From Actinomycetota bacterium (lineage in GTDB: Bacteria > Actinomycetota > Acidimicrobiia > Spongiisociales > UBA5794), in assembly GCA_013151445.1 (NCBI GenBank), contig JAADIG010000014.1, positions 1-45,837 on the forward strand: a DNA stretch of 45,837 nucleotides. Direction: 5' to 3'. Each line of letters begins with the position of its first letter. Position 1 is the first letter of the stretch. Both the position numbers and the translations under genes were made by a program. Below the pieces are notes generated by a model. It searched no databases. It was not told the DNA's origin and was given only the letters and a program-made list of their open reading frames with translations. This document shows positions 12,177-16,081 of this stretch, in pieces.

Positions 12177-13004
12177 CTACGAAGGCTCCGGATCATCCGT
12201 TGCGAACGCCGGGCAGATGTCCTGATAGGAACACCAGTCACATAGCCTCGAAGTCTGGGTCGGGAAGCTGTCCGTCGTGATGGCTGTATTGATGGTGTCC
12301 CAGAGTTCTCTTAGCTGCGTATCCATGGAGTCGAGCTGCTCGTCATCAACCGGGACCTGGTACACCGTTGGTCCGGTGAGATAGATCAACTTCAGCCCAT
12401 CCGGTGTGACCCCGGTCCGGTGGCGGATCAGCAATGCGTATATTCGGAGCGCAAAGAATGCCTTGTCGGCGAACCGCTCGGGTGGTGCCTTGCCGGTTTT
12501 GTAGTCGGTGATGATGAGCCCGTCGGTGGTCTCTTCCATCCGGTCGAGGATGCCGCGAATGACGATCCCATCGAGATCTTCAAGCATGTCAAGCTCTCGA
12601 TCGAGCGGTTCCAGCGAGCGTGGGTCCTCGACCGAGAAGTAGTTTGCGAGCACATTGAGGCTCTCGATCCCCCAGGCCCGTTCGTCATCAACGGACTCGA
12701 AAAGAGTGGGGTACTCCTCTTCCTTGAGTTCCATCCACGCCGCCCGGAACAAGTCATACAAACGCTGCGGCTCGCGCTCCGGGCCCGGGAGATCAAAGAG
12801 GCGTTGCAGGGCAAGGTGGGCGGTTGTTCCCCGCGCCTGGTAAACGGTCGGCGGTGACTCGATCTTGTCGATCGATTTGAACTTGAACATCTGCGGGCAC
12901 TGCTTGAAATCGCTCGCACGACTCGGGGAGAGCGTGGCGAGCAGCCGCGCTTCTTTCGGTCGATCGAGGTTCGTGTCTGTTGATGTGGTGGTCACTGGCT
13001 CCAT
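12177..13004 (-). CDS. Lone RecB-family PD-(D/E)XK nuclease with Fe-S motif
   Basis: A 275-residue protein beginning MEPVTTTSTDTN. It has SPSRASDFKQCPQMFKFK, GTTAHLALQRLF, the nuclease core RGILDRMEE ... LIITDYKTGK, and a closing CDWCSYQDICP, giving the four-cysteine arrangement of Cas4/AddB-like 4Fe-4S nucleases. There is no helicase domain and no CRISPR array or cas gene nearby, so a Cas4 role is not supported. It resembles the C-terminal part of the neighbouring AdnAB proteins and may act in DNA end processing. The ATG is preferred to a GTG 9 nt upstream because that GTG falls inside a -10-like TATAGT. Confidence 0.8.
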   Translation of the reverse strand: MEPVTTTSTDTNLDRPKEARLLATLSPSRASDFKQCPQMFKFKSIDKIESPPTVYQARGTTAHLALQRLFDLPGPEREPQRLYDLFRAAWMELKEEEYPTLFESVDDERAWGIESLNVLANYFSVEDPRSLEPLDRELDMLEDLDGIVIRGILDRMEETTDGLIITDYKTGKAPPERFADKAFFALRIYALLIRHRTGVTPDGLKLIYLTGPTVYQVPVDDEQLDSMDTQLRELWDTINTAITTDSFPTQTSRLCDWCSYQDICPAFATDDPEPS

Positions 13005-13011
13005 AGTCGGC

Positions 13012-13017
13012 ACTATA
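13012..13017 (-). promoter_or_regulatory. -10-like hexamer TATAGT, probable leaderless promoter
   Basis: On the minus strand TATAGT is seven nucleotides before the ATG of the RecB-type nuclease gene, with no Shine-Dalgarno sequence between. Confidence 0.4.
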
Positions 13018-13643: not shown

Positions 13644-14630
13644 ATGGATTTTGGAGCGTTCGTTCCCCAGGGGTGGCGGATGGACCTTGTTGGTATCGAA
13701 GACCGCGACCACTGGGAGACGATTAGGGCTGTCGCGACCCGGATAGAGGACGCCGGGTACCGGTCACTGTGGGTGTACGACCATTTTCACACCGTTCCCG
13801 AGCCGACCCAGGAAGCCACCTACGAGGCATTCACGCTGCTCGCAGCCCTCGCCGGCGTAACCTCTCGTGTGCGCCTCGGCCAGATGTGTACCTGCCACGC
13901 GTACCGTCCACCCGCGATGCTCGCCAAGATTTCCGCCAACATTGACGTGATCTCTGGTGGCCGCCTGGACCTAGGAATTGGTGCAGGTTGGTACCAGCAG
14001 GAGTTCGAGGCATACAACTATTCGTTCCCCAAACCTTCGGTGCGGATCGCAGAATTGCGCGAAGCGGTGGAAATCATCGAGAAGATGTGGGTTGAGGACG
14101 AAGTCAACTACGACGGGACCTACTACCGCGTCAACGGGGCCATCAACCGTCCAAAACCACTCCAAGAACCTCGTCCCCCACTTTGGATCGCGGGTGGTGG
14201 CGAGAAACTCACTCTTCGGCTGGTGGCAGAAAAGGCCGACTACGCAAACTTTGCTGCCAACCCTGCAACATTCGCCAGGAAGTCGGCGATCCTCGACCAA
14301 CATTGCGACAATATCGGACGAGACCCGGGCGAGATCGTCCGCAGCGTCCACCTCGAGGTGCTTGTCGGCGAAACGGATGCTGAGGTCCACACGATCGCAG
14401 AACGGGCAGGGGAGCAACGATCGATATCAGGCGAGGAATATGCGTCGAGGTTCACCGTCGGAACCGTTGATCAGGTGATTGAGAGGCTCGACGAATATGC
14501 TGCCGTCGGCTGCGGATATGTGATCGCGTACTTCCCAGATGCCGTCTGGGGGCGGTCATTGGAGCTGTTTGCCGACCGAGTTATCCCACACTTCTTGCCC
14601 CCAATCCCAGTTCGCGAATCAAAACCTTGA
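13644..14630 (+). CDS. LLM-class F420-dependent oxidoreductase
   Basis: A 328-residue TIM-barrel protein of the luciferase-like monooxygenase family. Seen are the N-terminal strand MDFGAFVPQG, YRSLWVYDHFHT, the VRLGQMCTCHAYRPPAMLAK block and DVISGGRLDLGIGAGWYQQEF, which is diagnostic for the F420-dependent branch common in actinobacteria. The physiological reaction is a hydride transfer to or from coenzyme F420; the substrate is not predictable. GAGGAGG stands eight bases before the ATG. It appears monocistronic, followed by the 818-nt gene-free interval. Confidence 0.85.
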   Translation: MDFGAFVPQGWRMDLVGIEDRDHWETIRAVATRIEDAGYRSLWVYDHFHTVPEPTQEATYEAFTLLAALAGVTSRVRLGQMCTCHAYRPPAMLAKISANIDVISGGRLDLGIGAGWYQQEFEAYNYSFPKPSVRIAELREAVEIIEKMWVEDEVNYDGTYYRVNGAINRPKPLQEPRPPLWIAGGGEKLTLRLVAEKADYANFAANPATFARKSAILDQHCDNIGRDPGEIVRSVHLEVLVGETDAEVHTIAERAGEQRSISGEEYASRFTVGTVDQVIERLDEYAAVGCGYVIAYFPDAVWGRSLELFADRVIPHFLPPIPVRESKP

Positions 14631-14657
14631 GTCGCGAAAACTAACTATCATTTTGAC

Positions 14658-14686
14658 TTGCGAATCGTCTAGTCAGGTCGTATGTT
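14658..14686 (+). promoter_or_regulatory. Promoter for structured-RNA candidate: TTGCGA-N17-TATGTT
   Basis: TTGCGA (14658-14663) and TATGTT (14681-14686) are 17 bp apart. Transcription would begin about 14692, immediately before the first hairpin, which supports an independent RNA. Confidence 0.45.
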
Positions 14687-14691
14687 GTGCT

Positions 14692-15010
14692 TGTCGATGC
14701 GGGAAACCACATCGATGAATCTCTCGAAAGAGAGTGGCAACCGCCTCCTCGGAGGTGGAAGTCGGAGAACCCTTCGGGGAACTTCAGGAGAATCCTTCGG
14801 GAAACTCCGCTGGGAAGGCCTTCGGGACGACCCAGTCGTCCAAACGGACGACCGCTCATTGAGCGGCCGGTGTACCGCTTCGGTGGCGCAACGGCTAGAG
14901 GGCTTTCGGGTCCAAAGGTTGAAAGAGCGGACACGGTAGGTATTTCGGTACCCACCAGTGAGAACACCCCGAGAGGGCAGAGGTTTCGGCCAAAGCTTCC
15001 TCGGGGTTTC
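14692..15010 (+). ncRNA. Candidate structured non-coding RNA (~320 nt) with serial tetraloop hairpins
   Basis: Serial stems, all with stable loops in plus-strand sense: TCGATG/CATCGA (14694-14715) with an inner GG-GAAA-CC; CTCTC-GAAA-GAGAG (14721-14734); CCGCCTC-CTCG-GAGGTGG (14741-14758). Three tandem look-alike hairpins with UUCG caps and purine-rich symmetric internal loops follow (14764-14785, 14787-14808, 14810-14835). Then GTCGTCC/GGACGAC (14835-14852), CCGCTC/GAGCGG (14852-14866), CCGC-UUCG-GUGG (14875-14886), and GGT-GGTA/TACC-ACC (14935-14956). It ends with CCCCGAG/CTCGGGG. UUCG and GNRA loops would be lost on the other strand. I tested it against RNase P, tmRNA, SRP RNA and tRNA signatures and none fits. 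Confidence 0.5.
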
Positions 15011-15018
15011 TCCGCGTT
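14967..15018 (+). terminator. Terminator-like stem at the end of the RNA candidate
   Basis: CCCCGAG (14967-14973) pairs perfectly with CTCGGGG (15000-15006) around a 26-nt loop and is followed by TTTCTCCGCGTTTT. The poly-U is interrupted, so termination is likely but not certain. The trailing GGTTTCTCCGCGTT recurs in both downstream repeats. Confidence 0.45.
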
Positions 15019-15074: not shown

Positions 15075-15177
15075 GCTACCGGGATCGTTTGTGTTCCCCG
15101 AGTCGCGTCTTTGTGGTGTCAGTGGGCGAGGGTTGGTGAGGGGGAGTCGTGGGCGCGTTCTTGGTTTCTCCGCGTTC
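15075..15177 (+). repeat. Direct repeat copy 1 (~103 bp) with G-quadruplex-capable core
   Basis: Begins GCTACCGGGATCGTTTGTGT and ends TTTCTCCGCGTTC. It contains four G-runs at 15124-15126, 15130-15132, 15140-15144 and 15151-15153 with loops of 3, 7 and 6 nt. The second copy starts 215 bp downstream in the same orientation. Confidence 0.8.
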
Positions 15178-15289
15178 AGACCCGGTGTGATGTTGTTCTT
15201 GCGGGTTTCGGGTTCGTCCTAGAACCCGTAAGCAACGGAGCCTGCGACGTTGCCGTTCTAGCAACGAACCGAGCTTTGCGAGGTTCGCA

Positions 15290-15391
15290 GCTACCGGGAT
15301 CGTTTGTGTTCCCGCGGCGCGTCTTGGTGGTGCCGGTGGGTGAGGGTTGGTGAGGGGGAGTCGTGGGCGCGTTCCTGGTTTCTCCGCGTTC
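15290..15391 (+). repeat. Direct repeat copy 2 (~102 bp) with the same G-rich core
   Basis: Nearly identical to copy 1. Its G-runs (15338-15340, 15344-15346, 15354-15358, 15365-15367) and the last two loop sequences are unchanged, while divergence concentrates in the segment before them. It ends ~45 bp before the -10 element of the PH-SHOCT gene. Confidence 0.8.
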
Positions 15392-15448: not shown

Positions 15449-16081
15449 ATGGCGTATCCAGAACGATTACTCACCGAAGACGAGACCATCATTTCGCAGT
15501 TCCGTCCGCATTGGCGGATGCTGCTCATTCCGGTGCTGTGGGTCGTCGCCGGGATCGTTGCGGTGTGGCTCATCTACCGGGTTCCACCGGACGACCGCAC
15601 AATTGACCTGATCACCACGGGGATCGTGGCCATCGCACTCATTCCTGCGGCGATTATCCCGTTCGTGTCCTGGTGGTTCACCGGGTACATCCTGACGTCG
15701 GAGCGGCTCATCACCCGCAACGGGATCCTCTCGCGCAGCGGAATCGAAATCCCGCTGGAGAACATCAACGACGTCATGTTCAGCCAAAACATCTTCGAAC
15801 GGGTCCTCAAATCGGGTGATCTGTTGATCGAATCCGCAGGGGAGAGTGGGCAGAGCCGGTTCTCCGATATCCCTCACCCGGAGGATTTTCAGTCGCTGCT
15901 CTACAAGACCCGAGAGCTGCGAACCCGCGGAGGGTCCAAGAATTCCCCGACCGCCCCGATCGTTTCAAGAGACACCGATCCCATGGACAAACTTGAACGG
16001 CTTACCCAGCTCCACAGAGATGGTGTCATTTCCGACGAAGAGTTTGCCGGCAAACGCCAACAGTTCCTCGACGAGCTCTGA
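15449..16081 (+). CDS. Bacterial PH-domain (YdbS-like) membrane protein with SHOCT tail
   Basis: A 210-residue protein. Two transmembrane helices (about 24-43 and 54-75) precede a bacterial PH-like domain recognised by GYILTSERLITRNGIL and IPLENINDVMFSQNIFERVL. After a Ser/Pro linker, residues ~178-210 form a SHOCT motif (DKLERLTQLHRDGVISDEEF), a short helical hairpin thought to mediate oligomerisation or nucleic-acid contacts. Family members are membrane-associated and functionally undefined. A leaderless promoter sets the start. It converges with the RNA methyltransferase gene 20 bp away, leaving no room for a dedicated terminator. Confidence 0.75.
   Translation: MAYPERLLTEDETIISQFRPHWRMLLIPVLWVVAGIVAVWLIYRVPPDDRTIDLITTGIVAIALIPAAIIPFVSWWFTGYILTSERLITRNGILSRSGIEIPLENINDVMFSQNIFERVLKSGDLLIESAGESGQSRFSDIPHPEDFQSLLYKTRELRTRGGSKNSPTAPIVSRDTDPMDKLERLTQLHRDGVISDEEFAGKRQQFLDEL

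Follow-up and report, generated by a model that had tools for sequence, protein, structure and literature searches.

Most free-standing bacterial sRNAs act by pairing, and the CsrB/RsmZ-type decoy RNAs carry GGA in loops for CsrA/RsmE. In Actinobacteria, the closest described RNAs are Ms1 and CoRP. Ms1 of Mycobacterium/Streptomyces (PMC4191392, PMC9130861) is a free-standing, structured RNA of about 300 nt that was found by synteny; its fold opens into a central bubble, and its neighbour is a HAD-hydrolase gene (PMC9130861). CoRP of Corynebacterium is also long, structured and lineage-restricted; it has a length of 516 nt, is flanked by tRNA genes and binds RNA polymerase, and dnaA is unmentioned in the text of the paper (PMC11077062). 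Ms1-like RNAs of Actinobacteria cannot be aligned from one group to another (PMC9130861, PMC11077062). For the class Acidimicrobiia, our literature searches found no described lineage-specific regulatory RNA.

We analysed a DNA stretch of 45,837 nt from a member of the Acidimicrobiia (GenBank assembly GCA_013151445.1, contig JAADIG010000014.1), hereafter called the window, in which an original prediction had placed a new structured RNA at positions 14658-15018. The features of the locus are listed in Table 1. As judged from the sequence, positions 14693-15012 very probably form a genuine gene whose RNA folds stably; the transcript start was inferred from the -10 element to within 2 nt on either side, and the end was inferred from the terminator. 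By comparison with relatives, the RNA has its own promoter and terminator, is intergenic and is non-coding, as a free-standing sRNA gene should be. Between the RNA and the PH-domain gene, in the window at 15075-15391, there are two direct repeats of about 81 nt, which are 91% identical and 214 nt apart. The sequence GGTTTCTCCGCGTT occurs three times in this area, its first copy being the tail of the RNA terminator.

Table 1. Features of the RNA locus, in window coordinates
Feature	Position	Strand	Sequence or structure	Basis or remark
PD-(D/E)XK nuclease gene, syntenic upstream neighbour	12177..13013	-		Pfam, synteny
Luciferase-like monooxygenase gene	13644-14630			between the nuclease gene and the RNA in the window
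Putative two-box operator	14613..14640	+	CGCGAATC (14613-14620) and CGCGAAAA (14633-14640), start-to-start 20 bp	sequence, pair in almost all order relatives
Core promoter, sigma-70-type	14658..14686	+	-35 TTGCGA (14658-14663), spacer 17 nt, -10 TATGTT (14681-14686)	comparison
Structured RNA, predicted transcript of about 320 nt	14693..15012	+		fold, identity in two same-genus genomes, non-coding
Hairpin P1, 5' end	14694..14715	+	GAAA loop (GG-GAAA-CC)	fold
Hairpin P2	14721..14734	+	CUCUC-GAAA-GAGAG	fold, one compensated pair in L003
Hairpin P3	14736..14763	+	GGC-AA-CCGCCUC-CUCG-GAGGUGG-AA-GUC	fold
Hairpin P4	14764..14785	+	GGAG-AA-CCC-UUCG-GGG-AA-CUUC	fold; within the zone of the 23-nt gaps in L002, L003
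Hairpin P5	14787..14808	+	GGAG-AA-UCC-UUCG-GGA-AA-CUCC	fold, same-genus comparison
Terminator hairpin	14967..15006	+	CCCCGAGAGGGCAGAGGUUUCGGCCAAAGCUUCCUCGGGG, then UUUCUC able to pair with GAGAA (14960-14964)	R1 match of 67.6 bits, covariation, fold
bPH_2 domain + weak SHOCT protein gene, syntenic downstream neighbour, outside the RNA	15449..16081	+		Pfam, synteny in many loci

The folding energy of 14658-15018 was -160.2 kcal/mol (z = -4.47), and none of 100 dinucleotide shuffles was equally stable. High fold stability by itself would also fit an RNA of little sequence-specific function. At least ten local stems had been predicted, and the minimum free energy (MFE) fold of the likely transcript contains 13 hairpin loops, including five UUCG and two GAAA; unpaired runs of at least 5 nt occur only twice in the 321 nt of the window RNA. 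The claim that three successive hairpins share one design holds in its main part: P3 to P5, all at 14736-14808, each have a 2x2 AA/AA internal loop. Their caps, however, are CUCG, UUCG and UUCG, and not UUCG in all three. Internal loops of the repeated hairpins are often symmetric, and the 2x2 loops are about 86% purine. The number of hairpins differs between species, while the terminator and the 5' GNRA hairpin stay, a short hairpin of the latter kind being found inside the first 45 nt in 47 of the 73 family members. The distance from the boxes to the terminator ranges from 127 to about 890 nt among the family copies, the longest of which may include a second gene copy.

Compensatory changes among relatives, one of the checks that the original prediction had proposed, were found both in the terminator and in the full-length RNA of a sister subfamily. 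In 40 distinct terminator sequences, 98.4% of the cells are paired, compared with 35-66% when the partners were slid, and 27 cells carry double changes versus 4.6 +/- 4.1 in shuffles. The terminator-like stem of the original prediction is thus borne out by covariation. For the seven sister-subfamily sequences, the corresponding values were 98.1% and 37-55%, and 13 of 96 pairs are changed on both sides versus 6.2 in shuffles; since one and the same alignment served both to derive and to score the structure, a bias in its favour, more weight attaches to the comparison of double changes with shuffles. The window's own genus offers three sequences only, which show compensatory change in some stems, for example at 14721-14734 (UA to CG). 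In the terminator alignment A3 (columns 3-14 and 31-42), the 5' strand (CCCCGAGAGGG) is almost invariant and the partner strand is variable, one G-U pair being retained in 40 of 40 sequences. The terminator segment CCC-GAGA-GGG can form a GNRA hairpin of its own, a possible alternative fold.

The original prediction had also taken the plus-sense bias of UUCG and GAAA loops as a sign of a transcribed RNA. Over the 73 box-bearing copies of the family, we counted 190 UUCG hairpins where 8.1 were expected (23-fold above shuffles) and 355 GNRA hairpins where 60 were expected (6-fold), and the reverse-complement loops stayed at the null level, with 8 versus 7.5 for UUCG and 39 versus 41 for GNRA. 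This sense-only excess establishes the plus strand as the RNA strand. For the window alone the numbers are small: three UUCG and two GNRA hairpins have stems of 3 bp or more, where the null model gives means of 0.14 and 0.82, and one CGAA hairpin, which is UUCG in the opposite sense, was counted too.

To place the RNA among known families, Rfam 15 was searched, and no match at the gathering score was obtained in the window or in 20 related loci, nor any at E<=0.1 in 11 related loci. With relaxed thresholds, the window stretch gave only two chance-level matches; the best was RAGATH-32 (RF02922), which resembles the window RNA in its adjacent short hairpins with a UUCG cap and scored 15.2 bits (gathering score 41.8, E 0.93), the level of chance. 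The original prediction could not match the RNA to RNase P, tmRNA or 6S RNA, and our searches agree. Covariance models located tmRNA and RNase P elsewhere in the window's genome (C120:31828-32184 and C4:2615-2995, respectively), and 6S RNA (RF00013) had no match in this genome, where it should be noted that the model also matches only 5 of 14 control genomes. The RNA family matches no known RNA family, and this result and the compensatory changes support the claim of a new structured RNA. It resembles Ms1 in being actinobacterial, free-standing, structured and of similar length, and CoRP in being actinobacterial, long, structured and lineage-restricted. The long closed stem with a central open bubble of 6S/Ms1 was not seen in the MFE, centroid or alignment folds, all of which consist of successive short hairpins, and in place of the HAD hydrolase of Ms1 synteny the neighbours are PD-(D/E)XK nuclease and bPH_2 genes. 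Compared with Ms1, the new RNA is thus a row of tetraloop hairpins between these two genes, with a two-box promoter in common with nrdJ. With the CsrB/RsmZ-type decoys it shares many small repeated hairpins whose number varies, as would suit the multivalent binding of a protein; however, it lacks their GGA-in-loop repeat, its loops being UUCG/GNRA and its repeated feature the purine-rich internal loop.

The distribution of the RNA was examined by DNA search and by R1, a covariance model built from the terminator hairpin. The whole element is present in two same-genus genomes, with identities of 77% and 71%, and its last 55 nt or so, the terminator hairpin, were found by DNA search in 39 of 60 relatives. 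R1 matched 77 of the 86 sampled genomes of the order, most of them metagenome-assembled, as well as 13 of 160 other class members, weakly (about 40 bits or less), and a single genome outside the class in the phylum sample (32.5 bits). By these matches, the family is probably confined to one order of Acidimicrobiia, and outside the class it is next to absent from the phylum sample. The weak R1 matches in family f23, from another part of the class, were left out of the membership, because they appear to belong to another hairpin RNA, which has a locus of its own and no boxes. This f23 locus (L198-L200) is RNA-like, with tandem hairpins and its own conserved terminator (CCCCGAGGGGCUGG...GGUCACUCGGGG), has no box pair, and lies on a different contig from the PD-(D/E)XK gene. 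The window's genome has a single copy of the RNA; in many loci two or three copies occur close together, mostly between the nuclease gene and the PH-domain gene. Apart from tetraloop hairpins, no sequence motif is common to the whole family. In the short RNAs of the f2 subgroup (L009, L011, L060, L064, L067, L070 and L071), an invariant GGGGGCCCGCUUUCCC-type stretch precedes the terminator and is a candidate interaction site.

The promoter-like element of the original prediction is substantiated by its fixed geometry. In 66 of the 73 family copies, box 2 and the downstream -35 hexamer begin exactly 25 nt apart, and the -35/-10 spacer is 17 or 18 nt in 69 of the 73; the family hexamers are mostly TTGACG/TTGACC and TACNTT. 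A generic sigma-70 scan of the window called neither this promoter nor the terminator hairpin, and the comparative evidence therefore matters. The two upstream boxes, which the original prediction had missed, are CGCGAAA-type and 20-21 bp apart across copies.

The exact pair CGCGAAAA-N11-13-CGCGAAA was found in 38 of 41 relatives, with 74 sites among the matches listed and none in the backwards control. In the window's genome the pair marks dnaA, nrdJ and the structured RNA. Twenty box-pair sites outside RNA loci were fetched, of which nine lie upstream of dnaA, eight upstream of nrdJ and one upstream of ftsK, and two were unassigned; seven examples, including DnaA and NrdJ of the window's own genome, FtsK and further DnaA/NrdJ, were confirmed by HMM, and the remaining dnaA/nrdJ assignments rest on the look of the protein start. 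The ftsK site (L118, G013:C83) has its box pair about 90 nt upstream of the gene and suggests that the regulon may reach chromosome segregation. At the nrdJ promoters, TTG stands at the same +25 position in six of eight; in the other two, whose boxes are more closely spaced, it is displaced by about one base. The dnaA sites are without the promoter geometry of the nrdJ and RNA sites, so the boxes may act differently there. That one regulator would bind all these boxes, and the sign of its control as well, we infer from the sequence. FtsR was considered and rejected, as its published motif, AACCCTAAAGTAAAGGTTGAGGGTA (PMC6683498), is unlike the boxes. Literature searches on the box sequence and on RNAs in Acidimicrobiia returned nothing relevant.

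With a longer box pattern, pairs outside the order were confined to family f12, which has AT-rich genomes of about 1 Mb and is probably Actinomarinales, plus one other genome; in the phylum sample, no box pair was found outside the order. The inspected f12 sites (L120-L137, exact CGCGAAAA pairs) lie upstream of a dnaA-like gene, verified by Pfam for L127. Because box pairs at dnaA also occur in this family outside the order, the use of the boxes at dnaA is probably older than the order, and the RNA probably joined the same control. At L127 an rnpA-like ORF lies on the other side of the box pair. The f12 pairs make a candidate dnaA operator whose conservation extends outside the order. Genus g40 (L183-L197; genomes G158, G202 and G244) has several CGCGAAAA box pairs per genome. 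They sit within an intergenic element that recurs in partly similar form ahead of genes of various kinds, some of them enoyl-CoA hydratase-like and some acyl-CoA dehydrogenase-like. The R1 search found no RNA terminator in this genus, and box and RNA can thus be uncoupled.

From these comparisons we consider it probable that the family consists of free-standing, stable small RNAs with their own promoter and terminator, coupled by the boxes to replication or growth and binding protein multivalently. A regulator bound to the box pair would tie the making of the RNA to DNA replication or to growth. With less confidence, the RNA may act as a multivalent decoy or scaffold that binds a protein by means of its short repeated hairpins, which are built of a tetraloop, a purine-rich symmetric internal loop and an outer stem. 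More tentatively, the RNA might be replication-coupled under the nrdJ/dnaA regulator and titrate or scaffold a protein in time with the replication cycle. To our knowledge, no case of RNA-based, replication-coupled protein titration or scaffolding has been described in Actinobacteria. The multivalent protein-binding role is favoured over pairing with mRNAs such as dnaA or nrdJ in trans. Such antisense action is the usual mode of free-standing sRNAs, and the box pair common to the RNA, dnaA and nrdJ as well as the invariant stretch of the f2 subgroup would accord with it. It is nevertheless unlikely, since nearly every base of the window RNA is paired, no seed sequence is common across subfamilies and hairpin number varies freely between species, all of which suit multivalent protein binding better; in a small test, the unpaired runs paired with the start regions of the genome's own nrdJ and dnaA no better than with eight unrelated genes. 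The main rival is an RNA that binds RNA polymerase and so corresponds in function to Ms1, CoRP or 6S, in a group for which no such RNA is described. The length of about 320 nt is close to that of Ms1, RNAs of this kind in Actinobacteria defy alignment between groups, and 6S is unmatched in the genome. We regard it as doubtful, because neither structure nor synteny favours it: a row of short hairpins takes the place of the Ms1/6S central open bubble, and the PD-(D/E)XK and PH-domain neighbours correspond neither to the HAD hydrolase of Ms1 nor to the tRNA genes of CoRP (PMC9130861, PMC11077062).

The remaining explanations fit the locus less well. A cis-acting leader or attenuator of the PH-domain gene is suggested by the position of this gene, next downstream in the same direction in many loci, but is improbable given the conserved terminator followed by about 430 nt to the PH gene in the window, the common tandem copies, and the copies beside the nuclease gene for which no PH gene was detected in the fetched stretch. 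The variable hairpin number and the tandem copies might also point to a repeated palindrome or mobile-element remnant devoid of RNA function. The fixed synteny and promoter geometry, the compensatory changes and the sense-only tetraloops, however, make this very improbable; the window's genome has one copy only, and the covariation and promoter data already contradict it. Finally, three ORFs (85, 111 and 108 aa) overlap with the RNA region, but a short protein-coding gene on either strand is hardly conceivable: all three ORFs have in-frame stops or frame breaks in the same-genus homologues (L002/L003), in which the alignment gaps are 23, 23, 20 and 4 nt. A coding function was thus ruled out, in line with the non-coding character originally predicted.

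The upstream two-box operator, the order-wide conservation and the species-variable hairpin number are new beyond the original prediction. With this RNA, a class whose members are mostly uncultured actinobacteria gains a family that spans an order. The common operator links a non-coding RNA directly, and testably, with genes that initiate replication or supply deoxynucleotides. It also delimits, purely by sequence, a candidate replication regulon of the Acidimicrobiia, the dnaA part of which extends to a second group with genomes of about 1 Mb outside the order. Since the same box signal also fronts genes for DNA copying, the RNA may tie RNA-based control to the cell cycle in these bacteria.
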